A stretch of 64,000 nt of DNA, taken from positions 310,001-374,000 of the forward strand of contig NZ_JAFGYF010000004.1 of NCBI RefSeq assembly GCF_016921195.1, given 5' to 3'. The translations under genes were made by a program, and so were the position numbers. Below the pieces are notes generated by a model. The model saw nothing but the letters and a program-made list of their open reading frames with translations, did no database searches and was not told where the DNA came from. The DNA is from Cellulosimicrobium cellulans. Lineage in GTDB: Bacteria; Actinomycetota; Actinomycetes; Actinomycetales; Cellulomonadaceae. Shown piece after piece: positions 19,684-44,400 of the stretch (positions within the stretch are counted from its first letter, which is position 1; every line of letters starts with the position of its first letter).

Positions 19684-22600
19684 TTACTGGCCCGTGAAGA
19701 CGAACGGCGAGCCGGGCTCCTTGACGACGTCGCCGTCGCGCGAGCCGGTGACCGTCACGTCCGACAGGATCGCGTTGCCGCGCGCGCCGGCCATCGCGAG
19801 GATGCCGGAGCCGTTGTTCGACTTCTCGATCCGCACGTTCGTGATCCTCACGTCCGGCATGTTCCCCCCGCCGTTCTTGAACTGGATGCCGTCATAGGTG
19901 GAGTCGACGATGTCCGTGTCGCGGATGGTGACGCCGACGATGTCGTGCGTCTGCGGGAAGATCGTGATCGCGCCGAACTCCTGGTCCTCGTTCCAGAACG
20001 CCCCGCCGGTGCGGTAGAGCCCGTTGTTGGCGATGAGCGTCGTCCCCGAGAACGGCAGGGGGTCGTGGTCGGTCGCCAGCATGATGCCGGGGTAGTTCAT
20101 GGTGTCGTAGACGAGGTTGTTCTCGATCGAGTTGTCGTAGCCGCCGTAGATCGCGATGCCGTTGGCGCGCCACGGGAGCTGGACGGTGTTGTTCCGGAAC
20201 GTGTTGCTGTGCCCGATGTCGACGTTCCGGTCCTTGACGTACGGGTTGGCCCACACGGCGAGCGCGTCGTCGCCGGTGTTGCGGAACGTCGAGTTCACGA
20301 CCGTCGAGTTGCGCGTCCCGTTGCTGAAGTTGATGCCGTCCGCGTACGTGTTGCGGATGCGCATGCCGGAGAACACCAGCCCGTCGCCCGGGTTCCACAG
20401 CTCCGGGATGTTGGAGTAGTCGCGCCCGACCCACACGCCGACGTTCGCGTGCTCGATCCACACGTTGGTGATCTTCGTGTTCTTGCCGAACCGGCCGTTG
20501 AGGCCGACGCCGCCCTCCTCCTGTCCGTTGTTGCCGCGGATCGTGCCCGAGCCGAAGATCGCGAGGTCGGAGATCTGGGTGTTGTCGTCGATGTCGAACC
20601 CGAAGTTGCCCTCGTGCGGGTGGTTGATGACGCCCGGGGCGAGGTGCGGCGGGATGAGGCTGTAGAGCTGCGAGTGCCACATGCCCGCGCCGCGGATCGT
20701 CACGTCGCGGATGCCCACCTGGTTGTGCATCCCGCGGTTGAGCGGGTCGTCGGTGAGGATCTTCTTCTCCTGGCGCCACTGCCCCGCGGGGATCCAGACG
20801 CAGTCGATCTCGCCGTTCTGGTTCGCGGTCACGGCGGCCTGGATGGCAGCCGTGTCCTCGATGCCGTCGTCCGGAACCGCGCCGTACTCGGTGATCGACG
20901 TGCACTGCGCGGGCTTGCTCAGCGGCGGCGCGACCTGCTCGAGCTCGACGAGGTCGATGACGTAGAACGCCGCGTCGTCGCCGGCGTCGCGCTGGAGCCG
21001 GAACACCGTCCCGGCCGGGAACGACCGCCCGAGCAGCGCGTGCGACTCGTCGAAGAGCCGGCGCGCGTCCCCGCCCGGGGTGTTGACCAGGCCCTCGGGC
21101 TGGTCGGTCGTGCCGTAGAGCCAGGAGTGCTTGGAGGAGAGCGTCAGCTTCTGCACGAACTGGCCGTCCGCGTAGAGGCTGATCGTCTTCTCCTGGCCCC
21201 CGCCACCGGGGGCGTCGGGGATCGAGTTCCGCACGACGATCGAGTTCGTCGGGTTGGTGGACGTGAACTGGACGTACTGGCCCGTGCTCGTCAGGCGCAC
21301 GGACTCGCGGCCCGACGACTCGGTCGCGAAGTTCGTGTGCCCGAACGTGCGCAGCGCGTCGGTCTGGAGCAGCGTGCCGGTGTACTGGCCGTCCTCGGCC
21401 TCGTACGTCGTGTACGGGACGGCGGCGCCGCGCCCGACCGTCACGGCGAGCGTGCCGGTGTTGTTGTCCTCGTTCGTCTCGGCGACGACGCCCGTCGCGT
21501 CGGCCGTCGCGGTCACGGTCACCCCGCCGCTGGTGGCGGTCCACGAGCCGCTCGGCGTCACGGTGACGGTCGCGCCCGCGGGGACGGCCGGCGTCGTGCC
21601 GTCGAGCGTCGTGGAGCCGGCGACGACGCGTGTCACCGAACCGGCCGCGACGGGCTGGTTGCCGCGGTTGCGGACCTGGACCGAGAACGTCACGGCCGAG
21701 CCGACGGCCGGGTTGGCCGGGTTCGACGACACCGAGACGACCTCGAGGTCCGGCCCGGGCGCCTCGCCCACGACGAGCTTCGCCGGGGCCGTGAACGCGT
21801 TGTCCGTCTCGTCCTGCTCGGCCACGGTGTCCGCCGGGTCGACGACGGCGCCGACCGTGTACTCGCCCGCGGGCCGGGTGCCCGCGGCGACCTGGACCTG
21901 CGCGCTCGCGCCGGGCTGGAGCGCGGCGACGGCGGCCGACCCCGCAGTCGAGCCGCCGAGCTTCCCGTCGAGCGTCGTGGCCGACGACGCGCGGTCGCCC
22001 GTGTTCGTCACCGTCGCCGTGAGCGTCACGGGGGTCGTCGCCGTGGGCGACGCCGGGGACGCGGTCACCGCGGTGACGGTGAGGTTGGGGTTCGGTGCAG
22101 GGGCGCCGTAGACCTCGAGCTCGGCGACCTGGCCGTTGCCCGCGCCGGTGTTGCCCGTGAAGCGCAGGCGCACGTCGGTGGCGGTGCCCGTCACGGGGAC
22201 GTCGACGAGGTTGCCGCTGCCCGGCGCGAACGCGTAGCCGGCGGACGCCTTGAGCTCCTGCCAGGCGCCCGTGCCGGTGCGCCCCCACACGGAGAACGTC
22301 TGCGTGCGTGGACCCCACGCGGCGTCGGGGTTGAGCCGGACACGCACGCTGCTGAGCTGCGTGGGCGCGGCGAGCCCGACGTCGAGCGTCGACGGGTACT
22401 GCCCGCCCGCGCCCTCCCAGTAGGTGGTCGCGCTGCCGTCGACCGCGTTGGCGGCGACGAACTGCCACTCCGTCGACGAGGCCGTCGCGGGACGGCTCTT
22501 CGCGTAGTTGGTGCCGGTCGGGTCGGTCGGGTCGGTGGGGTCCGTCGGGTCGGTGCCGCCGGTGGGCGTGCCCCACACCTGGAGCTCGGACACCTGACCG

Positions 22601-23076
22601 TTGCCCGCGCCGGTGTTGGCCGTGAAGGCGAGGCGAACCTCGTCGACCTCGGCGTCGAGAGGGATCTCGACCCGGTTGCCGCTCGCGGGGTCGAACGCGT
22701 ACGCCGCCGACGCCTTGAGCGTCCGGAACGACGGCTCGCCGTCGGAGCGGCCGAGCACGCTGAACGTCTGCGTCCGCGGCGACCACACGGACGGCGGCGG
22801 CAGCGTGACGACGACGCGGTCGACGTCGGCCTCCGCCCCGAGGTCGACGGTGAGGTGCGACGGGTACTGCCCGCCCGCGCCCTCCCAGTAGGAGCCGGTG
22901 TTCCCGTCGTTCGCGTTGCCCGCGACGTACGTCTGCGTCACCGACGACGCGACGATCGGCTTGCCGAGCGCGAGGTTGGTGGCGTCCGCGGCGTGCGCCA
23001 CGGCGACGACGCCGAGCGGCGCGACGAGCGCCAGCGCGGCGCCCGCCACGACGGTGTGCTTCCAGGGGGTACTCAT
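19684..23076 (-). CDS. Secreted GH87-type alpha-1,3-glucanase (mutanase/mycodextranase)
   Basis: 1130 residues. Signal peptide (about 1-30, ending VAVAHAAD), two F5/8C discoidin-type (CBM32-like) domains (about 33-169 and 189-323) joined by a DPTDPTDPTDPT linker, two CARDB domains (about 329-433 and 443-549), a CBM6/35-like domain (about 553-716), then a right-handed beta-helix catalytic domain to the end. Asp913 in ADGINF and Asp936-Asp937 in NTGDDALAVW have the 23- and 24-residue spacing of the GH87 catalytic triad. Predicted to hydrolyse alpha-1,3-glucan of fungal walls or dental-type mutan outside the cell. GAGGA precedes ATG 23076. Confidence 0.88.
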   Translation of the reverse strand: MSTPWKHTVVAGAALALVAPLGVVAVAHAADATNLALGKPIVASSVTQTYVAGNANDGNTGSYWEGAGGQYPSHLTVDLGAEADVDRVVVTLPPPSVWSPRTQTFSVLGRSDGEPSFRTLKASAAYAFDPASGNRVEIPLDAEVDEVRLAFTANTGAGNGQVSELQVWGTPTGGTDPTDPTDPTDPTGTNYAKSRPATASSTEWQFVAANAVDGSATTYWEGAGGQYPSTLDVGLAAPTQLSSVRVRLNPDAAWGPRTQTFSVWGRTGTGAWQELKASAGYAFAPGSGNLVDVPVTGTATDVRLRFTGNTGAGNGQVAELEVYGAPAPNPNLTVTAVTASPASPTATTPVTLTATVTNTGDRASSATTLDGKLGGSTAGSAAVAALQPGASAQVQVAAGTRPAGEYTVGAVVDPADTVAEQDETDNAFTAPAKLVVGEAPGPDLEVVSVSSNPANPAVGSAVTFSVQVRNRGNQPVAAGSVTRVVAGSTTLDGTTPAVPAGATVTVTPSGSWTATSGGVTVTATADATGVVAETNEDNNTGTLAVTVGRGAAVPYTTYEAEDGQYTGTLLQTDALRTFGHTNFATESSGRESVRLTSTGQYVQFTSTNPTNSIVVRNSIPDAPGGGGQEKTISLYADGQFVQKLTLSSKHSWLYGTTDQPEGLVNTPGGDARRLFDESHALLGRSFPAGTVFRLQRDAGDDAAFYVIDLVELEQVAPPLSKPAQCTSITEYGAVPDDGIEDTAAIQAAVTANQNGEIDCVWIPAGQWRQEKKILTDDPLNRGMHNQVGIRDVTIRGAGMWHSQLYSLIPPHLAPGVINHPHEGNFGFDIDDNTQISDLAIFGSGTIRGNNGQEEGGVGLNGRFGKNTKITNVWIEHANVGVWVGRDYSNIPELWNPGDGLVFSGMRIRNTYADGINFSNGTRNSTVVNSTFRNTGDDALAVWANPYVKDRNVDIGHSNTFRNNTVQLPWRANGIAIYGGYDNSIENNLVYDTMNYPGIMLATDHDPLPFSGTTLIANNGLYRTGGAFWNEDQEFGAITIFPQTHDIVGVTIRDTDIVDSTYDGIQFKNGGGNMPDVRITNVRIEKSNNGSGILAMAGARGNAILSDVTVTGSRDGDVVKEPGSPFVFTGQ

Positions 23077-23479
23077 GAACGTCCTCGTTCTCCCGCCGGG
23101 GCGGGCTCGTCCACCCGCGGCAGCGGTGCCCGACGGCGGGCGCGACCGTGCTGGTGCCGCGCCCACCGTCACGGGTGGGTCGGGTCAGGGCTGGTTTCAA
23201 GGCCGGGACCGGGATCGACCCCAGGTCCAGACCGGTCGGCCGGAAGTGCCACGAACGACCCGTCAGGGATGGTCACCGGTCGGACCCGTGGCGAATTCGA
23301 GAGTTGCAGCGTGTGCACTGCTTTGTGCTGGACTTCTGTCAACTTCTTGCGTCACGCAGTACGGACGTTACGAGACGGGCATCATGGGCGTCAAGCGTGG
23401 GTGAAGGGCGTGCCGGAATGTCGCGCTCGGGCCGGGGCGTCGGGGCCCGAACGAGCTACGCGTCCATCGCTGACGTGAG
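23077..23479. other. 403-bp intergenic region upstream of GH87
   Basis: No open frame here has convincing codon bias. It should hold the GH87 promoter: TTGACA on the minus strand at 23342-23337 is a possible -35, but no good -10 lies 16-18 bp further on. A 9-base motif ACCGGTCGG occurs twice in direct orientation (near 23230 and 23275). Nothing else stands out. Confidence 0.4.
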
Positions 23480-25164: not shown

Positions 25165-25488
25165 ATGTCGCTCACCATCATGCAGATCCGCCGCACGAGA
25201 GCGGAGCTCAAGGCGAACCTCCATCGGTCCGGCCTCACCCTCGACGCGATCCGAGCCGACCTCGGGTTCAGCGCCGAACGGCTCGACCGCGCGCTGCGCC
25301 TCGGACGCGGGACCACCGGGACCGACATCTGGCTGCTGCGCGACTACCTGGAGCAGGCCGTCACCGACGCCGACGCCGAACCGGTCCGGTACACGGTGCT
25401 CACCGAGGAGTCGCGCAGCAGAGCACGGCAGTGGTTCGACCTCCTGCCCGCACCACACCACGACTTCTCTGCCTCCGTGCCCCGGTAG
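25165..25488 (+). CDS. DUF2316 family protein
   Basis: 107 residues matching DUF2316: MSLTIMQIRRTRAELKANL, then a helix-turn-helix-like stretch LDAIRADLGFSAERLDRALRL, and TDIWLLRDYLEQAV. Function unknown; DUF2316 genes commonly accompany oxidoreductases. GAGGAAG precedes ATG 25165. Probable operon with the reductase. Confidence 0.8.
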   Translation: MSLTIMQIRRTRAELKANLHRSGLTLDAIRADLGFSAERLDRALRLGRGTTGTDIWLLRDYLEQAVTDADAEPVRYTVLTEESRSRARQWFDLLPAPHHDFSASVPR

Positions 25489-25633: not shown

Positions 25634-26617
25634 TCAACCGCGGTGGGGTACGCGATCAGCCTGGTCAGCGAGAGGATCGGCGCTCTCCGGCAACCAAGCC
25701 TTGGCGGGGTGCGTCGAGCGCCAGTGGCGCGCGATGTCGACGCGGCGGGCGACCCAGACGTCCGGGTGGTTCGCGACGACGTCGAGGAACCGCTTGAGAT
25801 CCGCCGCACGGCCTGGGCGACCGGAGATACGCAGGTGCAGGCCGATGCTCATCATCCGGGGACGCTCCGCGCCCTCCTCGAGCAGCTGCTCGAGCGCTCG
25901 CGTCAGGTAGGCGGAGAACGACTCGGACTGGAAGCCGTACGTGTTGACGTACCGCCCGTCGTTGTTGTCCAGCGTGTAGGGCACGACGAGCTGGGCGATA
26001 CCGTCGACGTCGACCCAGTAGGGCAGGTCGTCGCTGAACGAGTCGGAGTCGTAGAGGAAGCCGCCGTGCTCCACGACGAGGCGACGGGTGTTCTCGCTGT
26101 TGCGTCCGGTGTACCAGCCGACGGGCCGCTCGCCCGCGACCTCGCGGTGGATGCGGACCGCCTCGGCGATGTGGTCGCGCTCGACGTCGGAATCCATCTC
26201 GGCGTAGTTGACCCAGCGCAGCGAGTGCGAGGCGATCTCCCAGCCGGACTCACGTGCAGCGGCGACGAGCCCGGGGTTCCGCCGCATGGACTCGGCGATG
26301 CCGAAGACCGTGACGGGCAGCGAGCGCTCGTCGAAGAGCCTGCGGAGGCGCCAGAAGCCCGCCCGGGTCCCGTACTCGTACTGCGACTCGACGTTGAGGT
26401 TGCGTCGCCCGGCGAGCGCGGTGGTGGGCTCCTCGGTGAGGAACGCCTCGGACGCGGGGTCCCCGTGCAGGACGTTGTTCTCGCCGCCCTCCTCGAGATT
26501 GAGCACGAACTGGACCGCCACCTTCGCCCCGCCCGGCCACGCCGCGTGCGGAGGGTCCCCCGCATAGCCCGCGAGGTCTCGAGGGTAGGGCCGCTCGGTA
26601 GGGTGCGTCGTCGTCAT
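25634..26617 (-). CDS. PuuE-like polysaccharide-deacetylase-superfamily hydrolase
   Basis: 327 residues. The NodB-type barrel carries the allantoinase-PuuE pattern: VQFVLNLEEGGENNVLHGD, FGIAESMRRNPGLVAAARESGWEIASHSLRW, and YTGRNSENTRRLV. No signal peptide, so it acts in the cytoplasm. PuuE hydrolyses allantoin, but no other purine-catabolic gene is near. Its promoter carries the operator also found before the ECF operon, so it may instead act on the imported sugar derivative (for example as a deacetylase or amidase). ATG 26617 has GGAGAG upstream. Confidence 0.75.
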   Translation of the reverse strand: MTTTHPTERPYPRDLAGYAGDPPHAAWPGGAKVAVQFVLNLEEGGENNVLHGDPASEAFLTEEPTTALAGRRNLNVESQYEYGTRAGFWRLRRLFDERSLPVTVFGIAESMRRNPGLVAAARESGWEIASHSLRWVNYAEMDSDVERDHIAEAVRIHREVAGERPVGWYTGRNSENTRRLVVEHGGFLYDSDSFSDDLPYWVDVDGIAQLVVPYTLDNNDGRYVNTYGFQSESFSAYLTRALEQLLEEGAERPRMMSIGLHLRISGRPGRAADLKRFLDVVANHPDVWVARRVDIARHWRSTHPAKAWLPESADPLADQADRVPHRG

Positions 26618-26679
26618 CGCGTGTCTCTCCGTGGGTGTGCAGTCGGGCTTCGGCGCCACCGACTAGAATGCGTGGTGCG

Positions 26680-26699
26680 CGTTAGTCAGATTTGACCAA
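26680..26699. promoter_or_regulatory. Operator copy 1, CGTTAGTCAGATTTGACC
   Basis: Contains the inverted pair GTCA-GATT-TGAC (26685-26696). A near-identical 19-bp copy lies at 27550-27568. This copy sits between the divergent PuuE-like and regulator genes, close to a TAGAAT hexamer (26664-26669). Confidence 0.7.
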
Positions 26700-26762
26700 T
26701 GCTGCCCAACGATGGCTCGCAGCAGCGGTCCGCGTCAAGCGGACCCGGAGGAGAGGACGCAC

Positions 26763-27539
26763 ATGAACGATCGCGAGGGCGCGATGCTGGCACTGGCACA
26801 CGCCATCTCGACGTCGGACGCCCCGGTGGGCACGCGCAACGCCCAGCGCGAGCTCGCGGCGCGCGGGATGGTGCTCAGCGAGTCCTCGGTGTCCCGCCTC
26901 CTGCGCGAGATGGACCGCCGCGGGTGGACCACCCCGGCCGGCACCAAGGGCCGCACCCTCTCCGCCGAGGGGCGCCGGCGCGCCGCCGAGGCCGTCCTGG
27001 CCGAGCGCACGTCCGACTCGCTCCAGCACGCGGTGCGCGACGTCCAGGACCTGCTCGACCTGCTGCGGGCGCGCCAGGCGGTGGAGAGCGCCGTAGCGGC
27101 CGACGCTGCACGCGAGCCGGCCGAGGAGGGTCTCGCAGAGCTGCGACGGCTGTGCTCCGACCACGCCGCCGCCGTCGGCAGCGCGCCGATGATCGAGCAG
27201 CCCGGGCTGCAGTTCCACCGCGGGGTCGTACATCTGGCGAGCAACCGGATGCTCAAGCTGGCCGCCGACATGATGCTCGCGCCCCACCTCGACCGGGTCG
27301 AGGCCGTGCTCGACGCGATCCTGTCCACCCGGCGCGACGAGGAGCGCGTGGTCGCCGAGCACCGGGACGTGCTCGAGCGCATCGAGGCGCGGGACCCCGA
27401 CGGCGCCCGCGCGGCGATGGACGCCCACTTCGAGGACATGATCGCCGCCGCGGAGAACGCGCTGGTGGGCAGCGGCGGCGCGCTCGTCGAGCGCTTCCTC
27501 GGTTGGGTCGATCCCGCACCCGGCGGCCGGGCCCGTTGA
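26763..27539 (+). CDS. Transcription regulator: HTH_12-like winged helix joined to an FCD domain
   Basis: 258 residues. The N-terminus (GTRNAQRELAARGMVLSESS, then VSRLLREMDRRGW) resembles the NrpR/RNase R-type winged helix (HTH_12), not the usual GntR helix. The C-terminal 150 residues look like an FCD sensor (LLDLLRARQAVESAVAADAA, QFHRGVVHLASN, EHRDVLERIEARDPDGARAAM). Such FCD domains bind sugar acids such as galactonate (DgoR) or uronates. Flanked on both sides by the same operator motif. GGAGGAGAGGA precedes ATG 26763. Confidence 0.8.
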   Translation: MNDREGAMLALAHAISTSDAPVGTRNAQRELAARGMVLSESSVSRLLREMDRRGWTTPAGTKGRTLSAEGRRRAAEAVLAERTSDSLQHAVRDVQDLLDLLRARQAVESAVAADAAREPAEEGLAELRRLCSDHAAAVGSAPMIEQPGLQFHRGVVHLASNRMLKLAADMMLAPHLDRVEAVLDAILSTRRDEERVVAEHRDVLERIEARDPDGARAAMDAHFEDMIAAAENALVGSGGALVERFLGWVDPAPGGRAR

Positions 27540-27549
27540 CCAGGGTCAA

Positions 27550-27568
27550 CGTTAGTCAGAATTGACAG
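27550..27568. promoter_or_regulatory. Operator copy 2, CGTTAGTCAGAATTGACA
   Basis: Perfect inverted pair GTCA-GAAT-TGAC (27555-27566) in the 110-bp gap before the BNR-ECF operon. It matches copy 1 at 26680 in almost every base, which links this operon to the upstream regulator. Confidence 0.72.
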
Positions 27569-27649
27569 ACGGACGAACGCCTGTGCAGACTGCCGCCGTC
27601 GACGGAAAGGACCGTCGGTTCGACGACGCAACGACGGCAGGAGCAGAAG

Positions 27650-28792
27650 GTGGCCTCAGGCACGATGGCCCCGGCACGGGTGCTGACCAACCCGACCGAG
27701 GACCGGTTCCAGGACGAGCACCGCATGTGGCAGGGCATCCCCTCGATCGAGAGGACGGCCGGAGGTCGCCTCTACGTCGACTGGTACTCCGGGATGGAGA
27801 CCGAGACGGGCGGCAACTTCGTGGTCGTCACGACGAGCGACGACGACGGACGTACGTGGAGCGGCCCACGGTTCGTCGTCGAGCACCCGGACCCCGAGGT
27901 GCGCGTCTACGACCCCGCGCTCTGGCGCGACCCGTCCGACCGGCTCTGGATGTTCTGGAACCAGAGCCGCGACTTCTTCGACGGCCGGGTCGGCGTGTGG
28001 GTGTCCGTGAGCGACGACCCCGACGCCGACACGCCCTCGTGGTCGGCCCCGCGCCGCATCGCCAACGGCCTGCAGATGAACAAGCCCACGGTGCTCTCGG
28101 ACGGCACCTGGCTCTTCCCGACGGCGATCTGGGCATGCCACGAGCCCACCGAGCAGCACGCGCTCGAGGCGGAGCGGTTCTCCAACGTCTACGCGTCGAC
28201 CGACCAGGGCCGGACGATCGAGTATCGCGGCAGCGCCGACGTCCCGAACCGCAGCTTCGACGAGCACATGGTCGTCGAGAAGCAGGACGGCACGCTCTGG
28301 ATGCTCGTGCGCTGCTTCGACGGCGTCGGTGAGTCGTTCTCCTCCGACGGAGGCAGGACCTGGACGCCCGGGCGACGCAGCCATGTGGACGGCCCCTGCT
28401 CGCGGTTCCACGTCCGTCGCCTGCCGTCCGGCCGGCTGCTCATGGTCAACCATGTCGACTTCGGCGAACGACGCACCGTCGAGGAGCTCGAGCTCCAGGG
28501 AAACGTCAAGGAGTGGAAGGGCCGCACCAACCTCACCGCGCTGCTCAGCGACGACGACGGCGCGACCTGGCCCCACCGTCTCCTCCTCGACGACCGCGAG
28601 GACGTGTCGTACCCCGACGCCGCGATCGGTCCCGACGGCCAGATCTTCGTGACCTACGACCACGACCGGTTCGGCGACCGCGGGATCTACCTCGCCCGCA
28701 TCACGGAGGACGACATCCTTGCCGGCTCGGTCTCCAGCCCCGGCTCCGCGCTCCGCGTGCTCGTCAACCGCGCGCTCGCCCGAGCGGTCTGA
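27650..28792 (+). CDS. Cytoplasmic BNR/Asp-box beta-propeller protein (sialidase-like)
   Basis: 380 residues with four Asp boxes of the SxDxGxTW type (residues 63-70, 183-190, 231-238, 300-307), the layout of a six-bladed sialidase-like propeller. There is no signal peptide, so it works inside the cell on something the ECF transporter imports. Propellers of this kind include exo-sialidases and also polysaccharide lyases; activity cannot be fixed from sequence. GTG 27650 follows AGGAG by 6 nt. First gene of the eight-gene unit running to 34793. Confidence 0.75.
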   Translation: MASGTMAPARVLTNPTEDRFQDEHRMWQGIPSIERTAGGRLYVDWYSGMETETGGNFVVVTTSDDDGRTWSGPRFVVEHPDPEVRVYDPALWRDPSDRLWMFWNQSRDFFDGRVGVWVSVSDDPDADTPSWSAPRRIANGLQMNKPTVLSDGTWLFPTAIWACHEPTEQHALEAERFSNVYASTDQGRTIEYRGSADVPNRSFDEHMVVEKQDGTLWMLVRCFDGVGESFSSDGGRTWTPGRRSHVDGPCSRFHVRRLPSGRLLMVNHVDFGERRTVEELELQGNVKEWKGRTNLTALLSDDDGATWPHRLLLDDREDVSYPDAAIGPDGQIFVTYDHDRFGDRGIYLARITEDDILAGSVSSPGSALRVLVNRALARAV

Positions 28793-28941
28793 CCCAGTCC
28801 CCCGGGCGCGGCTTCCCGCCGATGCCCGACCGGGCCGCGACGCCGGCCCACGGTCGTCCGTCCGCGTCGACGCCGACGGACCACGCCCCGACCGGTGCTG
28901 TCACCGACGACCGCACCACGACACGTCCCCGGAGGGACACC

Positions 28942-29571
28942 ATGACCCGAGCTCAGCAGACCACGACCCGCTGGACCGTCCTGCCCAACTGGAAGTTCCA
29001 GATCCTCCCTCGCGACACGCGCACGATCATCACGTGCGTGTTCCTCGGCCTGACGATGGCCGTCATCCTCCAGATCACCGAGCGCATCGACCTCGCCCTG
29101 ACCGGTGGGAGCATCCCCATCGTCTCCGCGATCGTCGTGTGCGCCATCTGGGTGCCGTCAGCGGCCTTCTACGGGCTGACCGGCGCCCTGATCACGGCCT
29201 GGATCAACCCGATCATCTCCAACCTCACGGCGTCCCAGCCGATGGCGCCGTTCCTGTTCCTCACGAACGCGGCGCACACCGTCCCGGTCGCGCTCCTCGT
29301 CTGGGCGCTCAAGCCGCGCGACCGGGGCCTCAAGCTCTGGCAGGTCCTCGTCATCGGGCAGATCGCCGGACTGTGCGACGCCGTGATGTTCGGGATCGGC
29401 AACCGTGTGATCCTCCACCTGCCGTGGGACTTCATCACCGTGCAGATCCTCGTCGTGCAGCCGTGCTACCTCGTGGGGTCCTTCATCACGTACGGCATCA
29501 TGCGCCGCCTGGTGAACACCGGCCTCGTTCCCAAGGAGCGCGCGACCGCCGGGAGCCTCGATGCGGTGTGA
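28942..29571 (+). CDS. ECF transporter substrate-binding (S) component
   Basis: 209 residues with about six hydrophobic segments (from ITCVFLGLTMAVILQITERI to VQPCYLVGSFITYGIM), the size and layout of an ECF S subunit. It is followed directly by T and two ATPase genes, so it is a dedicated group I system. It does not match a vitamin-specific S family that I can recognise. GGAGGG precedes ATG 28942. The 149-bp gap after the BNR gene holds no gene. Confidence 0.82.
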   Translation: MTRAQQTTTRWTVLPNWKFQILPRDTRTIITCVFLGLTMAVILQITERIDLALTGGSIPIVSAIVVCAIWVPSAAFYGLTGALITAWINPIISNLTASQPMAPFLFLTNAAHTVPVALLVWALKPRDRGLKLWQVLVIGQIAGLCDAVMFGIGNRVILHLPWDFITVQILVVQPCYLVGSFITYGIMRRLVNTGLVPKERATAGSLDAV

Positions 29572-29601
29572 GCCGACGCCCGGGTCGACGGGAGGTGCGC
29601 G

Positions 29602-30399
29602 ATGAGCGGCACGATGTTGTTTCGTCCCGGCCGGTCGTTCCTGCACCGTGCCGACGCACGAGCGAAGCTCGGGGTGATCCTCCTCGTCCTGGCCGTCGCC
29701 CTCAGCACGACACGGCTCGACGTCCTCGTCGCCCTCACGGCGGTGGTCGTCGTCGGGCTCGCCGTCCTCGCGCGCATCACCCCGGCGTCGTACTGGAAGG
29801 CGCTCGTCCTCATCGTCCCGCTCATCGCGCTGCTCACCCTCCTCCAGGCGCTCGTGCAGGGCGGGCCCGCGCTGCTCGAGGTGGGCGGGGTGTCGCTCTC
29901 CCGGGCGGGCGTCCTCCTGGGGCTCGGCATCGGGATGCGCCTGTTCGCGATGGGCATCTGCTTCTACGGGTTCTCGGTCACCACGAGCCCGTCGGACATC
30001 GCGCTCGCGCTCGACCGGCTGGGCGTCCCGTACCGGTTCGCCTACCTGACCAGCTTCGCGTTCCGGTTCCTGCCGCTGCTGCAGGACGAGGCGCGGACCC
30101 TCCTGACGGCCATGGCCGTCAGGGGGTCCAGCGAGAGCGGCTCGACGAACCCGTTCCGGCGCGGGCGAGCGATCGTGCGGATGCTGTTCCCCATGCTGGC
30201 GGGATCGATGAAGCGCAGCGGCGACATCGCCCTGTCGATGGAGCTACGGGGGTACGGCCTGCGAGGGCAGCGCACGTACTACCGCGCCCCGGTCTTCCGG
30301 GCCGCCGACGCCGCCCTGCTGCTGTGCACCCTGCTGCTCGCCGTCGCCCTCGTCGGTGCGCAGTGGTGGGCCCCGACACCGTTCCTGGGAGGGACGTGA
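29602..30399 (+). CDS. ecfT: ECF transporter transmembrane (T) component
   Basis: 265 residues. Hydrophobic N-terminal half, then the cytoplasmic coupling helices with two Arg-Gly motifs (MAVRGSSES and MELRGYGLRG) where EcfT contacts the two ATPases. GGAGGTGCGCG precedes ATG 29602. Lies between S and A genes in the standard S-T-A-A order. Confidence 0.88.
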   Translation: MSGTMLFRPGRSFLHRADARAKLGVILLVLAVALSTTRLDVLVALTAVVVVGLAVLARITPASYWKALVLIVPLIALLTLLQALVQGGPALLEVGGVSLSRAGVLLGLGIGMRLFAMGICFYGFSVTTSPSDIALALDRLGVPYRFAYLTSFAFRFLPLLQDEARTLLTAMAVRGSSESGSTNPFRRGRAIVRMLFPMLAGSMKRSGDIALSMELRGYGLRGQRTYYRAPVFRAADAALLLCTLLLAVALVGAQWWAPTPFLGGT

Positions 30400-30400
30400 C

Positions 30401-31273
30401 ATGACCACACCAGCCATCGAGGTCTCCGGCCTCAGCGTCCGGTACGACGGCGCCGCGCGCCGCGCGCTCGACGAGGTCGACTTGACCGTCGCCCAGGGCG
30501 AGATCGTCGGCGTCCTCGGCCCGACCGGGGCCGGCAAGTCGACGCTCCTGCAGTGCCTGTCCGGCGTCATCCCGCTCCACGAGCACCACGCGAACCTCCG
30601 CGGGACGGTGCGCGTGCTCGGCCGCGAGCTGTCCGAGTACGACGGGCTCGCGCAGATCACCGAGGACGTCGGTCTCGTCATGCAGGATCCCGAGGTCCAG
30701 CTCGTCAACACGGTCGTGCGCGAGGAGCTCGTCTGGGGCATGGAGAACCGTGGGGTGCCCGTGCCGGAGATCGAGCGTCGGCTCGAGCGCGCGGCCCGTC
30801 TGTTCGACATCGAGCGGCTGCTCGACCGGTTCACCCACGCACTCTCGGGCGGGGAGAAGCAGCGCGTCGTGGTCGCGTCGATCTTCTGCCTCAGCCCACG
30901 GATCATGCTCCTCGACGAGCCGACCTCCGAGCTGGACCCGGCGGGCACCGAGAACGTCATGGACGCGATCCGGGTGCTGGCCGACGAGGGCGTGACGATC
31001 GTCGTCGTCGAGCACAAGGTCGAGGAGCTCGCCGTGTACGCCGATCGCCTGGTGGTCCTCGCCGAGGGTCAGGTCCGGGCGGTCGGCACCCCCCGGGAGG
31101 TGCTCGAGGGGCCCTCCGCCCCCGAGCGCCCGCAGGTCCTCGACGTCGCGCTCCACCTGCGCGACCAGGGCTTGTGGCCGGGTGCGCTGCCGCTGTCCGT
31201 CGAGGACGCGGTCGAGACGTGGCGCGGCGCGGGCACCCCCGCGCCCGTGCCCCACGAGGGGAGACTGGCATGA
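30401..31273 (+). CDS. ECF transporter ATPase 1
   Basis: 290 residues, ABC ATPase: Walker A GPTGAGKST, Q-loop MQDPEVQL, signature LSGGEKQR, Walker B IMLLDEPTSELD and switch His in VVVVEHK. GGGAGGG precedes ATG 30401, one base after the T-gene stop. Its stop overlaps the next start as ATGA. Confidence 0.92.
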   Translation: MTTPAIEVSGLSVRYDGAARRALDEVDLTVAQGEIVGVLGPTGAGKSTLLQCLSGVIPLHEHHANLRGTVRVLGRELSEYDGLAQITEDVGLVMQDPEVQLVNTVVREELVWGMENRGVPVPEIERRLERAARLFDIERLLDRFTHALSGGEKQRVVVASIFCLSPRIMLLDEPTSELDPAGTENVMDAIRVLADEGVTIVVVEHKVEELAVYADRLVVLAEGQVRAVGTPREVLEGPSAPERPQVLDVALHLRDQGLWPGALPLSVEDAVETWRGAGTPAPVPHEGRLA

Positions 31274-32136
31274 CGGGCACCGACACGGTCATCGAGATCG
31301 ACGACGTCGAGCACACCTACGGCGGCACCAAGCGCGCGCTCGCCGGGGTGTCGCTGTCCATCGGCCGCGGCGAGTTCGTCGCGGTGATCGGGAAGAACGG
31401 CTCGGGCAAGACCACCCTGGCCAAGCACTTCAACGGGCTGCTGCGGCCGACCAACGCCACCGGCTCCGTCCGGCTGCGCACGCGGGACGGCGTCGTGGAC
31501 ACCCGGCGCACCAAGCTGCACCAGCTCGCGTCGACCGTCGGGTACGTGTTCCAGAACCCGGACCGTCAGATCTTCCACGACACGTGCCGCGAAGAGCTGG
31601 AGTACGGGCCGCGCAACCTCGGCGTGGACGAGTCCGCGCTGGAGGAGCAGGTCGCCCGGACCCTCGCGCTCGTCGGCCTCGCCGGTCGCGAGGACGCCAA
31701 CCCCGTCCACCTGTCGCGCGGCGAGCGACAGCGGCTGGCCATCGCGTCGACGCTCGTCATGGGGTGCGAGGTGGCGGTCATCGACGAGCCGACCACAGGG
31801 CAGGACCGCGCCGAGTCCCGCAAGATCCTCGACGCGCTGGCCCACCATCACGCCCTGGGCCGCACGGTCGTGATCATCTCGCACGACATGGCCCTCGTCG
31901 CCGAGTACGCGACGCGCGTCATCGCCATGCGCGAGGGGGCCGTTCTTGCCGACGGTACGCCCGCCGAGGTGTTCTCCCGGCGTGCGGTCCTCGAGGAGAC
32001 CAACATCCGCCCACCCCAGGCCGCGGTGCTCGCCGCCGAGCTCGGCCTGCACGGTGTGCTGACGGTCGACGACGCGGTGCGCGAGATGGCGCGCCAGCGC
32101 GCCGCCGTCCCGACCGCCGTGCGACCCCTGACCTGA
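31270..32136 (+). CDS. ECF transporter ATPase 2
   Basis: 288 residues: Walker A GKNGSGKTT, Q-loop FQNPDRQIF, Walker B VAVIDEPTTGQD, switch His in IISHDMAL. The signature reads LSRGERQR rather than LSGGE, a small departure in one of the two sites of the ATPase pair. Overlaps ATPase 1 by four bases. Confidence 0.92.
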   Translation: MTGTDTVIEIDDVEHTYGGTKRALAGVSLSIGRGEFVAVIGKNGSGKTTLAKHFNGLLRPTNATGSVRLRTRDGVVDTRRTKLHQLASTVGYVFQNPDRQIFHDTCREELEYGPRNLGVDESALEEQVARTLALVGLAGREDANPVHLSRGERQRLAIASTLVMGCEVAVIDEPTTGQDRAESRKILDALAHHHALGRTVVIISHDMALVAEYATRVIAMREGAVLADGTPAEVFSRRAVLEETNIRPPQAAVLAAELGLHGVLTVDDAVREMARQRAAVPTAVRPLT

Positions 32137-32146
32137 GGAGAGACCC

Positions 32147-33157
32147 GTGCACCACCTGATCACCGGCGCGAACGGCTTCGTGATGAGCGTCCTCGCCGCG
32201 AGGATCCTCGCCACCGATCCCGAGGCACGGATCACCGCGATCGACCTGCGCCTCCCCGACGAGTCGGTGCTTCGGCACCTGGGCGGCGCGGCCGCCGAGC
32301 GCACGCGCTTCCTGGCCGTCGACGTCACGGACGCCGAGGCGGTCTCGCACGCTGTCGCCGAGGCACGTCCGGACACGGTCGTGCACGGCGCGACCGTCAC
32401 CCACGACGCCCGGAGCGAGGTTGAGGCTCCGGCCCGCTTCACCGGGGTGAACGTCGAGGGTACGGTCCACGTGCTGGACGCCGCACGCCGCCTGACGAGC
32501 CCGCCGACGGTCGTCCTCGTGAGCAGCGGCGCGGTCTACGGGTCGTCGCCGCAGACGCTGCTCACCGAGGCGAGCGCGCCGTGCCCGGACGAGCTCTACG
32601 GCATCAGCAAGTGGGCGGCAGAGCTCGTCGCCCGCCGCTTCGCCGAGCTGCACGGTCTGCCGACGACGGTCGTGCGGCTGACCAAGATGTTCGGTCCGAT
32701 GGAACGACCGACGGGCGGACGCGCCGTCATGTCGCTCCCGTACCACCTTGCGGCCGCCGCCGTGCAAGGGCGGCCTGCTCGGCTCACCGCACGGACGCTC
32801 GACGCGGGGGGCGACTGGCTCAGCGCGCAGAGCGCGGCTGCCGCGCTGCACGCCGCGGCTCGGCGTCCTCCGGCGCCCGGCACCGTGGCGACGTTCAACG
32901 TCTCGTCGGGCCGCTGGACCAGCGTGCGCGAGCTCGTCGCGGCGTTCGGCGTGGACGTGGTCGAGACGCCGGTGGACGCGGCGGACGCGGACATGGACCC
33001 GGCGGACGGCTACGGCAAGAACGGCGTCTACGCGTGCGACCGCGCCCGGTCCGAGCTCGGTTGGACGCCAGGAGACCTCGGCGCGCAGGTCGCCGAGCAC
33101 CTCGCGTGGGCCCGGGCCCACCCGGACCTGTTCGAGCACACCGGCGGGCCTGCGTGA
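32147..33157 (+). CDS. NAD-dependent epimerase/dehydratase-family (extended SDR) enzyme
   Basis: 336 residues. Rossmann motif reads TGANGFVM, with Met in place of the third Gly of GxxGxxG. VSSGAVYG supplies the catalytic Ser and YGISKWAAE the Tyr and Lys; DxxLP near residue 30 favours NAD. Resembles sugar or sugar-acid dehydrogenases of the DenD/uronate dehydrogenase kind. In this operon it may oxidise or epimerise the imported sugar upstream of the kinase. GTG 32147 has TGAGGAGAG upstream; its stop overlaps the kinase ATG by one base (TGATG). Confidence 0.8.
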   Translation: MHHLITGANGFVMSVLAARILATDPEARITAIDLRLPDESVLRHLGGAAAERTRFLAVDVTDAEAVSHAVAEARPDTVVHGATVTHDARSEVEAPARFTGVNVEGTVHVLDAARRLTSPPTVVLVSSGAVYGSSPQTLLTEASAPCPDELYGISKWAAELVARRFAELHGLPTTVVRLTKMFGPMERPTGGRAVMSLPYHLAAAAVQGRPARLTARTLDAGGDWLSAQSAAAALHAAARRPPAPGTVATFNVSSGRWTSVRELVAAFGVDVVETPVDAADADMDPADGYGKNGVYACDRARSELGWTPGDLGAQVAEHLAWARAHPDLFEHTGGPA

Positions 33158-34161
33158 TGCCTGGCCTCGTCGCCCTCGACTGGGGCACGACGACGTGCCG
33201 CGCCTACCTTCTCGATGAGGACGGGGTGGTGGTCGAGCAGCGGACGAGCGAGGACGGCGTCGCGGTGCTCGACCGCCGCGCGACGTCGGGCGGCAGCCGG
33301 GCGCGTGTCTACGAGGACGCGTTCGCCGGGCTGTGCGGGGACTGGATCTCCGGCTCACCCGGGCTCCCCGTCGTCGCGAGCGGCATGGTGGGCAGCGACC
33401 GGGGATGGCTGCGGACACCGTACGTGTCCCTGCCGTTCGACATCGTGCGGGATGACCTCCCACTCACGACCGTGCGCACCTCGCTGGGGGACCTCCACCT
33501 GGTTCCCGGCGTCGCCTGGACCCGCGGGGCGTCGGCGGACGTCGTGCGTGGCGAGGAGGCTCAAGCCCTCGGCGCGCTGCTGCACGTCGACCCGGCCGAG
33601 CACGAGGAGACCGTCCTCGTCCTGCCCGGGACCCACTCCAAGTGGCTCCGCGCACGAGGCACGACCCTCACCGAGATCGTGACGGCGCTGACCGGCGAGC
33701 TGTACGCCACGCTGCTGGAGCACACCGTCCTCGGCCGGGGTGTCCGCCGGCCCGGGTCGCCCCAGTGGTCAGCGTTCGACCGCGGCCTCGACACCGCAGG
33801 GGAACGCGCGGCCGAGGGTGTCGTCCTGACGCTCTTCTCGGTGCGCTCCCTCGCGGTGACCGGCGCGCTGCCCGCCCACGAGGCACCGGACTATCTCTCG
33901 GGCCTGCTCGTGGGCGCGGAGCTCGCAGGCGTGGCCGACGACTGGCTCGGCTCCTCGTCCGTCGAGCCCGTCGTCGTGGGCGCGCGCCACCTCCAGCAGC
34001 GGTACGCCCGTGCCCTGGCCCGGCGCGGAACGCGTGCGCGCCTCGTCGACGGCGACGTCACACCGGCCGCGCTCCACCACATCGCGCTCCGCGCCGGCAT
34101 GGTGCCGGCCCCGCGCACCGCACGTCGTACCGTGCCCGGATCCACCGGAGCACGCGCATGA
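33157..34161 (+). CDS. dgoK: 2-dehydro-3-deoxygalactonokinase
   Basis: 334 residues matching DgoK throughout: LDWGTTTCRAYLLD phosphate loop, ASGMVGSDRGW, DVVRGEEAQALGAL and LPGTHSKW. It phosphorylates 2-keto-3-deoxy-galactonate to the 6-phosphate in the De Ley-Doudoroff pathway. Joined by overlapping codons to the epimerase before it and the aldolase after it. Confidence 0.9.
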   Translation: MPGLVALDWGTTTCRAYLLDEDGVVVEQRTSEDGVAVLDRRATSGGSRARVYEDAFAGLCGDWISGSPGLPVVASGMVGSDRGWLRTPYVSLPFDIVRDDLPLTTVRTSLGDLHLVPGVAWTRGASADVVRGEEAQALGALLHVDPAEHEETVLVLPGTHSKWLRARGTTLTEIVTALTGELYATLLEHTVLGRGVRRPGSPQWSAFDRGLDTAGERAAEGVVLTLFSVRSLAVTGALPAHEAPDYLSGLLVGAELAGVADDWLGSSSVEPVVVGARHLQQRYARALARRGTRARLVDGDVTPAALHHIALRAGMVPAPRTARRTVPGSTGARA

Positions 34162-34793
34162 GCGCCCCGGTCGACCCGCGACGGCTGGTCGCGATCCTCC
34201 GCGGCCTGCCGCCCGAGGACGCGCCGGCGGTCGGCGCCGCTCTCTACCGCGCGGGCGTCCGCGTCCTCGAGGTGCCCCTCACGGGGCCCGATCCTCTCCG
34301 CAGCATCACCGCGCTGCGGTCCACGCTCCCCCACGACGCCGAGGTCGGAGCCGGGACCGTCCGCTCCGTCGAGGACGTCCGGAGAGCGCAGGGCGCGGGC
34401 GCGTCGCTCGTCGTGTCCCCGCACCTCGACACCGCGGTCGTCGCGGCCGCGCTCGCGCGGTCCATGCGGTGTCTTCCGGGGGTCGCGACCGTGACCGAGG
34501 CGTTCGCGGCGCTGGCCGCAGGGGCGCGGGAGCTGAAGGTCTTCCCCGCGGACCAGGTCGGCACGAGCGGGCTCCGGGCCTGGCGGACGGTCCTCCCGCC
34601 GGAGGTCGCGCTCTATCCCGTGGGCGGCGTCGACGCCACGAACCTCGCCCGGTGGGCCGCGGCCGGCGCTGACGGGTTCGGCGTCGGGGGGTCGCTGTAC
34701 CGGCAGGGGCAGCGAGCCTCCGACGTCGCCGCGTCCGCTCGAGATCTCGTGCGGGCGTACGGGCTCACGCGGCTGCGCGACTCGTCGCCATGA
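34158..34793 (+). CDS. dgoA: KDPGal/KDPG-type aldolase
   Basis: 211 residues, class I aldolase barrel: VAILRG, VLEVPLTGPDP with the general-base Glu, GAGTVRS, and LKVFPAD with the Schiff-base Lys. Paired with DgoK it should cleave 2-keto-3-deoxy-6-phosphogalactonate to pyruvate and glyceraldehyde 3-phosphate. ATG 34158 overlaps the kinase stop. Last gene of the unit; a 5-bp hairpin (34839-34853) and a 12-bp palindrome (34797-34808) follow before the convergent permease gene. Confidence 0.88.
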   Translation: MSAPVDPRRLVAILRGLPPEDAPAVGAALYRAGVRVLEVPLTGPDPLRSITALRSTLPHDAEVGAGTVRSVEDVRRAQGAGASLVVSPHLDTAVVAAALARSMRCLPGVATVTEAFAALAAGARELKVFPADQVGTSGLRAWRTVLPPEVALYPVGGVDATNLARWAAAGADGFGVGGSLYRQGQRASDVAASARDLVRAYGLTRLRDSSP

Positions 34794-41479: not shown

Positions 41480-44400
41480 TCAGCAGGTCGGGACGGTGAC
41501 CGTCTGCTCGACCGTCTGCTCGCCGTCCGGGCCGGTGGCCGTCACGGTGACCGCGAGGTCACCCGTGACGCCGCGCGCCGCGAACGACTGGTAGGCGTTC
41601 GCCCCGGGCGCGACGTCCGCGAACGTCTTGGCCCCGAGCGCCGAGGCCAGCTCGACGTCCACCGCGGCGTCGGAGACGTTCACCGCGCGGACCGCGACGT
41701 ACGGCTTGCCGGCGAGGCAGCGCGGGCTGAGCGTGACCTCGACGAGCTCGACGTCGGCCGGCTCCTCCAGGGCGTCGATCGCGCCCTGGAGCGCGAGGCG
41801 CGCGTCGCGCAGCGCCTCGTCCGACGCCGCGGCGTCGTCCCGGGTCTCGGTCGCCGCGGCGAGCGCCGTGCGGAACGCCTGCCACGACTCGGGGCTGTAC
41901 CCCTCGTCGGTCAGGGCCTCCGCGCTCGTCACGAGGTTCTCGAGCCGACGACGCTCGGCGGGCACGAGCTGGTCGGTCGCCAGCCCGAGGCGCCGTGCCC
42001 GCTCGTCGACCTGCGCCTGGGTGGCACCGGCGTCGGCGAGGAGCGACCGTGCGGCCGCGAGCTCGCGCGTGAAGACGCCCGCGTCGATCCGGCCGTACCG
42101 CTCGATCTCCGCCTCGGGGGTCTCGGCCTCCCCGACCACCGCCGCGAGCGCCGCCGTGTCGGTCGGCGGGACCTCGACCTCGTACGCGTCGGTGAAGAAC
42201 CGCATGCTGTCGAGGTTCGCGACGTACGGGTGGTCGGCGTACGCCTCGGTCGACAGGCGCACCCATACCTGGTGCTTGCCGCGCACCGCGCTCGGCAGGT
42301 CGACGACGGCCGTGCCGTCCGTCGTCCAGCTCGAGCCGGTGTTCACCAGCGGGACGGTGACGAACGGCTCGCCCGGGTTCGCCGGGTCGAACGCGTCGAG
42401 GTAGACCGACAGCGCGGAGTTCCGCCCGGACCGGTTGGAGTTGTGGACGTAGTGCACGGCGAGCTGGTCGAGCGCGGCGGAGCCGAGGTCGATCTCGCCG
42501 TAGGCGAGCCAGTCGCCGTCCGCGGTGCCGCCGACGTTCGTCACCGGCCCGCTCGTCCACGTCGAGCTCTCGTTCTTCAGCCCGCGGCCGGAGTTCGACG
42601 TCCATGCCTCCGACTCGACGACGACCGACGTCGGGCCGCCCGGCGCGAACGTCAGGCTGTCGAGGTTCGCGACGTACGGGTGGTCGGCGTACGCCTCGGT
42701 CGTCAGGCGCACGAACACCTCGTGCGTGCCCTGCACCGTCTCGGGCAGGACGACGGTCGCCGTCCCGTCCGCGGTCCAGCTCGACCCGGTCGTCGGCAGC
42801 GGCACGGTGACGAACGGCTCGCCCGGGTTCGCCGGGTCGAACGCGTCGAGGTACACCGACAGCGCCGAGTTGTTCCCGGACCGGTTCGAGTTGTGGACGT
42901 AGTGGACCGACAGCTCGCCGAGCGGGAGCTCGCCGAGGTCGACCTCGCCGTACGCGATCCAGTCGCCGTCCGCGGTACCGCCGACGTTCGTCACCGGCCC
43001 GCTCGTCCACGTCGAGGACTCCTTCTTGAGCCCGCGCCCGGAGTTCGCGGTCCAGTCCTCGGCCTCGATCGTGACGGTCGGGGACTCGCCCGGCTGGCCC
43101 GGGGCCGCCGGGTCCTCGGCGCTGAACCGGAACCAGTCGAAGTTCCCGACCCAGCTCCGGCCCGAGGGCGCGAGGAGCTCGAACGTCACGACCTTCGCGT
43201 CGAGGAGCGCCTGCACCTCCCCGAGCTCCGTCGTCACCTCGGTGTACTTGCCCCAGCCGCTCGTGCCCTCGAGGTCGACGGTCGCGACCACGGGGCCGCT
43301 CACGTCCCCGGCGTGCACGCGCACGGTGCTCGGCGTCTCCGTGGGGCCGAAGCTCGTGTCGTACCGGACCGTGAGGAAGCGCGGCGGGGTGTCGCCGGCG
43401 GCGGTCTCGAAGGTCATGTCGCGGTACTGCACCCACGACCCGGAGCGCACGCCGCCGAGGTTCCCGTTCGAGCTGTTCGCCTCGTTCTTCAGCTCGCCGC
43501 CGGACCACGCCTCAGACTGCTCGGCCTCGAGCGTGCGGTAGCCGCCGCCCGTGAGGTCGAGCGCGTCGATCGCCGCGCCCAGCCGGTCGGCGGCGAACCG
43601 CAGCGCGACGCTCGTCGCGGCCTCGTCACCGAGGGCCTCCTGCGCCTGCGTCAGCGCGGTGGAGAACCGGTCGAACGTCGCCGAGGAGTAGTTGCCGTGC
43701 CGCACGAGCACGGCGTCGTCGACGAGCCCGGCGAGCGCGTCGCGCTCGGCCGACGCCACGGACAGGCGCAGCGGGGAGAGCACCGACACGCCCTGGCCGC
43801 GGAGCGAGGACGCGGCGACGCCGTCGGCGAGCGCGCCGTCGCGCAGGTGCACGAAGAAGCGCGCGTCCGCGGACGCCGCCCCCGTCAGGGTGACGGTGAG
43901 CGCGGTCGGTGACGCGACCGTCACGGCCGCGGTGACGCCGTCGGGCAGACCGACGACGCTCGCGTCCCCGCGGGCGACGAGGTCCGTGCCCGCAGCACCG
44001 GCGAACCGCGCGCCGTCGAGCGTGAGCGTGACGGTCGCGTCGAGCGCGCCGCCGTCGCCGGTCCGGACCGTCGTCGGGTCGGCGCTGACGCGCGGTCCCT
44101 CGGCGGGCTCGTCGGTCGCCGTGCTCATCGAGAACGCGGGCTCGGTGTCCGTTCCCCAGTCGCTCGGCTGCTCGCCCATGCGGAACGCGAGGTCCGCGCC
44201 CCCGATCACGGTTCCGTAGTCGACCCAGGTGTTGCCGAACGGTGCGCCGTCGAGCGTCGCCGACTGGACGTAGAACGCGTCCTCGGAGACGCCGTCGGCC
44301 GTGACCGTGAAGGCGCTGCCGTCGTCGTAGGTGATGGTCGTGGAGTCGAAGAACGGCGACCCGATCTGGAACTCGGACGACCCGGCGGTGACCGGGAACA

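Follow-up and report, generated by a model that had tools for sequence, protein, structure and literature searches.

Energy-coupling factor (ECF) importers have been described as scavengers of micronutrients, namely of vitamins and metals, with the importers for thiamine (YkoE), biotin (BioMNY) and cobalt (CbiMQO) being examples of group I. Here, a gene set is reported that surrounds an ECF importer within 64,000 nucleotides from Cellulosimicrobium cellulans (assembly GCF_016921195.1, contig NZ_JAFGYF010000004.1, positions 310,001 to 374,000 of the forward strand; this whole stretch is called the window and its first letter is position 1). In this set, the substrate-binding (S) component and its partners are encoded together with a PuuE-type cyclic-amide hydrolase, a sialidase-fold protein, an extended short-chain dehydrogenase/reductase (SDR) and a kinase and an aldolase for 2-keto-3-deoxy sugar acids. 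With chances that were judged to be about even, these genes would form a self-contained catabolic module around a group I ECF importer, the substrate of which would in these Actinobacteria combine a cyclic ureide or amide with a sugar-acid-like part. For the narrower statement that the S ligand contains a cyclic ureide or amide, the evidence makes a probable case. The reading builds on the parts and their families, the fold of a moderate-confidence model of the S component, a conserved linkage and a repeated palindrome, and the substrate class, the order of the steps and the reaction of each enzyme are tentatively derived from these.

The importer and the genes that travel with its S component

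The S component (28942-29571) is followed on the same (+) strand by a T component of the CbiQ family (29602-30399; PF02361, 112.9 bits, over cut-off) and by two ATPases matching PF00005, A1 (30401-31273; Walker A, LSGGEKQR, Walker B) and A2 (31270-32136; Walker A, LSRGERQR), which together identify an ECF importer. The best NCBIfam matches of A1 and A2 are ECF ATPase models, with scores under the cut-offs of these equivalogs. The S protein matches no Pfam or NCBIfam model over any cut-off and a profile search of the PDB returned no sequence relative, with nothing up to E 1, its assignment being provided by the predicted model (pLDDT 72, pTM 0.66; moderate confidence), which has the S-component fold.

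The original prediction had placed a BNR propeller gene, the ECF S-T-A-A genes, an epimerase/dehydrogenase gene, dgoK and dgoA on one strand, and all of these are confirmed on the + strand between 27650 and 34793, namely the BNR protein (27650-28792; BNR_2, 112.6 bits), the importer, the extended SDR of the NAD-dependent epimerase/dehydratase family (32147-33157; PF01370 (Epimerase), 116.5 bits; TGxxGF and YxxxK motifs), the 2-keto-3-deoxygalactonate (KDGal) kinase DgoK (33157-34161) and the 2-keto-3-deoxy-6-phosphogalactonate aldolase DgoA (34158-34793). That the last five genes are joined by overlapping or adjacent codons holds for gaps of -4 to 1 bp (A1-A2 -4, SDR-DgoK -1, DgoK-DgoA -4, and likewise T-A1 1), but not for the SDR gene, ahead of which lies a 10-bp gap (A2-SDR); the wider spacings are those of BNR-S (149 bp) and S-T (30 bp). 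The interval considered at that time (25634-34793) also contains two genes that had gone unmentioned, PuuE on the minus strand (25634-26659) and an FCD regulator (26763-27539, + strand).

A scan of 84,980 species genomes for S, which finds close relatives only, returned 12 loci (one from Cellulosimicrobium, seven from Streptomyces and one each from Ruania, Georgenia, Pseudonocardia and Rhodococcus), giving together with the window 13 actinobacterial loci, in the relatives of which genes were called by a simple codon-position script that may miss genes. S, T, A1, A2 and the SDR were found in 13/13 of them, the FCD regulator in 12, the BNR protein in 12 (it is missing from the stretch of Pseudonocardia, L012) and PuuE likewise in 12, whereby Ruania (L009) retains a 41-residue C-terminal remnant just before S. 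The importer belongs to group I, as genes for a T, an A1 and an A2 component accompany that of S in 13/13 actinobacterial loci and in the distant loci of Klebsiella and Halomarina that are described below. In Pseudonocardia (L012:11420-13138), A1 and A2 are read as a single open frame of 573 residues, i.e., fused. The occurrence of S is sporadic, with 3/59 relatives carrying it and only the window's own genome being positive in the class sample (1/394) and in the phylum sample (1/396).

The Rhodococcus locus (L013) has a close-packed run comprising an N-carbamoylsarcosine-amidase-like protein (best solved relative N-carbamoylsarcosine amidohydrolase, 160 bits), a FabG-type SDR, an NCS1 permease, PuuE, S, T, A1, A2, SDR and BNR. 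The only solved relatives of this permease at E 1e-5 are structures of the hydantoin permease Mhp1. The run is flanked by a D-hydantoinase-like gene (358 bits, cut-off 393), an Eda aldolase gene located 6 kb upstream of PuuE and a PfkB kinase of the 2-keto-3-deoxygluconate (KDG)/KDGal type (below cut-off). A related permease as well as FabG-type, isochorismatase-family and hydantoinase-like genes are present in Pseudonocardia (L012).

A search of 72,556 plasmid records returned S in five of them. On a Klebsiella pneumoniae plasmid, the account of which is based on one of four Klebsiella records, the order is M20 amidase, S (68% identical), T, A, A, SDR (42%), RidA, PuuE (68%) and FCD, and the other strand encodes a dihydropyrimidinase, a second M20 amidase, an NCS1-type permease (annotated as cytosine permease) and a FabG-type SDR. 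The first of the two amidases passes the hydantoinase/carbamoylase model and has allantoate amidohydrolase as its closest solved relative (318 bits). On a plasmid of the haloarchaeon Halomarina, genes for a hydantoin-racemase family protein, HyuB, HyuA, A1, A2, S (37%), T and an M20 amidase follow one another, and the window's PuuE, SDR, BNR, DgoK and DgoA proteins have no match in this stretch. In both distant cases, S is hence accompanied also by amidases that would strip a carbamoyl group. No relative was found in viral contigs, and the S-T-A-A DNA of the Klebsiella plasmid was unmatched in E. coli genomes. Altogether, a cyclic-amide ring opener stands with the importer in 14/15 S loci (the 13 actinobacterial ones, Klebsiella and Halomarina) and as a remnant in the 15th, and a sugar-acid kinase plus aldolase were recognised in 6/15. 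Judged by sequence, this S family without a model of its own is accompanied by enzymes predicted to open cyclic ureides or amides in Actinobacteria as well as on plasmids of Klebsiella and of a haloarchaeon.

Further plasmids, which lack the ECF genes, carry relatives of the enzymes. The SDR relatives (32-38% identity) have hydA within two genes on 4/4 annotated plasmids (from K. oxytoca, Rhizobium, Paracoccus aminophilus and Neorhizobium; a fifth, from Rhizobium WYJ-E13, L021, is unannotated) and puuE directly after on three of these. The closest PuuE relatives (65-69%; from Shinella, Sinorhizobium medicae and Paracoccus yeei) are paired with an M20 amidase on 3/3 non-ECF plasmids, these amidases being 69-71% identical to the Klebsiella M20 protein; the unannotated S. 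medicae stretch (L025) was read by tblastn, the M20 match there being divided over two frames. In the Shinella set a sugar-type ATP-binding cassette (ABC) transporter, RidA and a PF01370 protein are added. As a side observation, the Rhizobium, Paracoccus aminophilus and Neorhizobium plasmids (L017, L019, L020) share a conserved run of hydA, SDR, a PF01370-type oxidoreductase, PuuE, a thiamine diphosphate enzyme, a dihydroorotase-family protein and two SDRs behind an ABC transporter, which perhaps represents an uncharacterised cyclic-amide pathway.

The putative ring opener, an operator-like palindrome and the sugar-acid genes

The PuuE gene (25634-26659, minus strand; translation may in fact begin at an ATG at 26617) encodes a PuuE-type allantoinase or cyclic-amide hydrolase which passes the curated allantoinase model TIGR03212 with 446.7 bits (cut-off 424.6) and also carries PF01522 of the polysaccharide-deacetylase superfamily. 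Among the 59 relatives, PuuE proteins over cut-off occur in exactly the three S-positive genomes, and 25 others have weaker matches only. Between the divergent PuuE and FCD genes, the operator-like palindrome GTTAGTCAGATTTGAC is located at 26681-26696, and a second one, GTTAGTCAGAATTGAC, is found at 27551-27566 upstream of the BNR gene, both being instances of GTTAGTCA-N4-TGAC. When one mismatch is allowed, the window holds two such sites as compared to a mean of 0.01 in the shuffled window, with 0/100 shuffles having two, and within the 4.58 Mb genome the 16-base palindrome is exact only twice, both times at this locus (five more sites have one mismatch; the reversed control gave none). The 12-base core by itself, GTCA-N4-TGAC, is present at three places in the window. 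Both between PuuE and FCD and before BNR, it was found in 8/8 closest loci (the window and L002-L008), whereby in L003 and L004 the second site coincides with the very end of the FCD frame. Since the palindrome is repeated, rare in the genome and kept in all of the closest loci, PuuE and the ECF operon very likely constitute one regulon there. The claim of a dedicated ECF importer inside a regulated catabolic cluster is supported. Mere chance adjacency of PuuE was set aside in view of the conserved linkage, the repeated palindrome and the co-occurrence with S.

The FCD protein (26763-27539), the putative regulator acting at this palindrome, combines FCD and HTH_12 domains (PF07729 66.9 bits, PF08461 28.7 bits). 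Its N-terminus is of the HTH_12 (RNase R winged-helix) type, and a GntR domain was not reported in the family scan. On the far side of PuuE, the cluster is adjoined by the gene of a DUF2316 protein (25165-25488; 82.8 bits, cut-off 26), for which no match was obtained in L001-L013 at E 1e-5. Further away, very long minus-strand frames at 19684-23172 and 41480-46609 look by eye like repeat-bearing secreted carbohydrate-active proteins.

The BNR protein possesses the propeller fold of the GH33 sialidases. In the sequence alignment, R221 and R292 of the arginine triad as well as Y321 and E205, the counterparts of the sialidase tyrosine nucleophile and its partner glutamate, align, the latter two being invariant in 12 sequences, and the position of the FRIP arginine is taken by a glycine (G29) in 12/12 sequences, so that the triad is incomplete. 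With a hydrophobic N-terminus lacking, the sequence describes an intracellular sialidase-fold protein. Its use for sialic acid was set aside, as the first triad arginine and the hydrophobic N-terminus are absent and no sialic-acid gene was recognised among the genes scanned. Of seven distant BNR relatives opened, six have a gene of a 2-oxo-acid aldolase family adjoining or one gene away, and for the seventh a gene of the sugar-acid-kinase type lies about 5 kb away, which suggests, by gene context, a sugar-acid role of this sialidase-fold family. The earlier assignment of the propeller protein as a sugar-acid enzyme is therefore partly supported, fold and neighbours making such a role likely. 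In L018, L054-L056, L049 and L050, proteins annotated as exo-alpha-sialidase or matching BNR are encoded at most one gene from dihydrodipicolinate synthase (DHDPS) or HpcH/HpaI aldolase-family genes.

In the SDR, Y151, K155 and D33 are invariant in 14/14 sequences. DgoK (PF05035 (DGOK), 267.1 bits, cut-off 25) and DgoA (NF006600, 247.8 bits, cut-off 207) form a full KDGal kinase/aldolase pair, and a 2-keto-3-deoxy acid as the end of the route, as originally proposed, gains support from the finding that within the genus DgoK occurs in only 3/17 genomes (two of the 17 being under 90% complete), those with S; among the 59 relatives it is present in six, the three S-positive genomes and three others of the family. 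The statement that a galactonate dehydratase is missing holds for the cluster, but enolase-superfamily proteins are encoded elsewhere in the genome. For three of these, the best match is to a galactonate or mannonate dehydratase model, in each case under the curated cut-off (two were scanned as partial frames); the best galactonate dehydratase candidate reaches 178 bits at a cut-off of 311. Galactonate import was set aside, as the cluster holds no dehydratase. The kinase and aldolase pair was recognised in 6/13 actinobacterial loci, i.e., as DgoK/DgoA in the window and in L002 and as PfkB/Eda in L004, L007, L010 and L013, with the L007 kinase being assigned solely by clustering with that of L004. 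The search for S together with dgoK/dgoA in other genomes, suggested as a check of the original prediction, thus succeeded for L002 and yielded PfkB/Eda instead in four loci, but no such pair was recognised in seven of the 13. Comparing the window with L002, the Cellulosimicrobium relative, the identities are 98% for S, 90-94% for BNR, T, A1, A2 and FCD, 87% for PuuE, 74% for the SDR, 66% for DgoK and 74% for DgoA, which points to either faster evolution or an exchange at the 3' end of the operon.

The probable substrate and the competing readings

As the steady core of the loci consists of the importer, a ring opener and mostly an SDR, a cyclic ureide or amide is indicated as substrate, and as the actinobacterial additions are the BNR protein, a 2-keto-3-deoxy kinase and an aldolase, a sugar-acid part is indicated next to it; hence, a compound containing both is the simplest reading using both. 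The reaction sequence suggested for it assumes that S-T-A1-A2 takes up the compound and that PuuE opens its ring. The extended SDR would oxidise (or epimerise) a hydroxyl of the polyol part, and the cytoplasmic sialidase-fold BNR protein would release or convert the sugar-acid part. In Cellulosimicrobium, DgoK would then phosphorylate the resulting 2-keto-3-deoxy acid, which DgoA would cleave into pyruvate and a triose phosphate, and the FCD regulator may control both divergent transcripts via the GTCA-N4-TGAC palindrome. When a hydantoin ring is opened and the ureido group lost, the product is an alpha-amino acid or an alpha-keto acid. Accordingly, a 2-keto-3-deoxy acid would be the expected end product both of a hydantoin bearing a 3-deoxy polyol side chain and of a spiro-hydantoin sugar.

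A more specific version would have the module consume a hydantoin nucleoside or a spiro-hydantoin sugar, i.e., a hydantocidin-like ulosonic-acid ureide. Here, the compound would be imported intact by the ECF system, PuuE would open the hydantoin to give an ulosonic acid whose anomeric carbon bears a ureido group, the BNR protein would hydrolyse the anomeric C-N bond using its two remaining carboxylate-binding arginines, and the SDR would adjust the freed 2-keto acid prior to its consumption by DgoK and DgoA. This specific route was assigned a low probability, as the missing decarbamoylase is its main gap: no M20-type decarbamoylase over cut-off was found in the genome (other decarbamoylase families were not searched genome-wide).

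That gap counts against the combined ureide and sugar-acid reading as well, and so do several further findings. For the two M20 amidases of Klebsiella, L001-L013 hold no relative, so that, together with the gap just named, a complete hydantoin route cannot be seen here. As the HyuA and HyuB families also hold oxoprolinases, the hydantoin link of Halomarina is one by family name only. Between the PF01370 protein of Shinella and the window's SDR, no close relationship could be recognised. The kinase and aldolase pair went unrecognised in 7/13 actinobacterial stretches (of which L009 is a short contig), and the BNR protein does not belong to the core, since the stretches of L012, Klebsiella and Halomarina lack it. 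The search for the palindrome gave nothing in L009 and L010 and only one match, or partial or weak ones, in L011-L013; the PuuE remnant of Ruania (L009:1-800) reflects either a broken gene or an assembly fault. Finally, the PuuE tree does not show the ECF-linked PuuE proteins as one clade, and as a member of the polysaccharide-deacetylase superfamily PuuE could be a deacetylase.

The original prediction was that the importer takes up a plain sugar acid or an acidic disaccharide, on which the BNR protein perhaps acts as a lyase before SDR, DgoK and DgoA degrade the product; PuuE would then be an incidental neighbour or a deacetylase of a decorated sugar. This reading draws on DgoK and DgoA in the same run with the restriction of DgoK to S-positive genomes of the genus, on PfkB/Eda in four other loci, on the aldolase-family genes within one gene of six of the seven distant BNR relatives and on the sugar-type ABC transporter in the related Shinella set. 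However, the steady partners of S are ring openers, in far more loci than the kinase and aldolase (14/15 plus a remnant against 6/15), and hydantoin-type genes surround the homologues from Klebsiella, Halomarina, Rhodococcus and Pseudonocardia. As substrate, a plain sugar acid is hence less likely, and this reading is now seen as unlikely. If, conversely, the importer served plain nitrogen scavenging by taking up allantoin or a simple hydantoin, BNR, SDR, DgoK and DgoA would be neighbours with another job. PuuE passing the allantoinase model would be accommodated, as would the Halomarina locus, where S stands with hydantoinase-family genes and those four proteins are unmatched, and the NCS1 permease relatives, which match allantoin-permease models under cut-off. 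Such scavenging is nevertheless distinctly unlikely, given that the genome has no M20 allantoate amidohydrolase over cut-off, that the BNR and SDR genes are kept in 12/13 and 13/13 actinobacterial loci and that no purine-pathway gene was recognised among the neighbours scanned. Five PuuE proteins (54-58% identity) that adjoin uraH, picked as purine-pathway controls from the listed matches carrying annotation, moreover form a branch of their own (support 87/86), and purine salvage was set aside, as no urate gene was recognised nearby.

The host genera are chitin-degrading, and the route for the aldonic acid of N-acetylglucosamine (GlcNAc1A), an oxidised chitin product, has later deaminase and KDG steps. 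In marine bacteria this route is reported to begin with a deacetylase (PMC9537276, PMC12017989). An N-acetylated amino-sugar acid of this kind could thus be handled with PuuE, by virtue of PF01522, as N-deacetylase, followed by deamination to KDG, the kinase and the aldolase. This was considered quite improbable, as no deaminase or ammonia-lyase was recognised in the window cluster, the same PuuE group pairs elsewhere with carbamoylase-family amidases and the route has no place for the SDR and the BNR protein. Import of a pyrimidine-containing cofactor or its breakdown product, thiamine-like for instance, for degradation or salvage would be usual for an ECF transporter, but similarity of the S fold does not show the ligand. 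As the neighbours that were scanned or annotated include no recognised cofactor gene, and as the BNR protein, KDG kinase and aldolase are left unexplained, this reading is very improbable.

Comparison with described systems

If the combined ureide and sugar-acid reading is true, ECF transport extends to catabolic nutrients, this S family receives a candidate substrate class, and an unrecognised nutrient uniting a ureide ring with a 2-keto-3-deoxy sugar acid is indicated. It would likewise provide a testable role for a sialidase-fold family which is annotated as exo-alpha-sialidase yet sits in sugar-acid gene groups. Should the hydantoin-nucleoside version be true, no earlier ECF importer would, to our knowledge, be on record for a nucleoside-like source of carbon and nitrogen, and the sialidase fold would gain a reaction new to it. 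Among the literature matches listed, no relevant paper links an ECF transporter with hydantoin, allantoin or 2-dehydro-3-deoxygalactonokinase, whereby a 2009 survey of S families, the text of which was out of reach, might list such a family; the accessible part of PMC11109136 does not mention 'hydantoin'.

As compared to the group I importers YkoE, BioMNY and CbiMQO, the S component of the window is set apart by having neither a family model over cut-off nor a sequence relative in the PDB, and its neighbours look catabolic (ureide and sugar acid) instead of being vitamin or metal genes. With the DeLey-Doudoroff or galactonate (dgo) pathway the cluster shares DgoK and DgoA, whereas it lacks the galactonate dehydratase, uses another transporter and additionally holds PuuE, BNR and SDR. 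The BNR protein departs from the GH33 sialidases by the glycine in place of the first triad arginine (12/12), the missing hydrophobic N-terminus and surroundings in which no sialic-acid gene was recognised. PuuE is alike in sequence to the PuuE allantoinase 3cl6, its nearest solved structure (367.6 bits, model cut-off passed), but it stands without recognised purine genes beside it, no urate gene being among the window cluster genes scanned, and outside the branch of the five purine-pathway PuuE proteins. Compared with hydantoin utilisation clusters, which comprise hydantoinase, carbamoylase, racemase and an Mhp1-type permease, the distant S homologues lie inside clusters with these very families, whereas the window has PuuE alone of them, in a genome with no M20 carbamoylase over cut-off.

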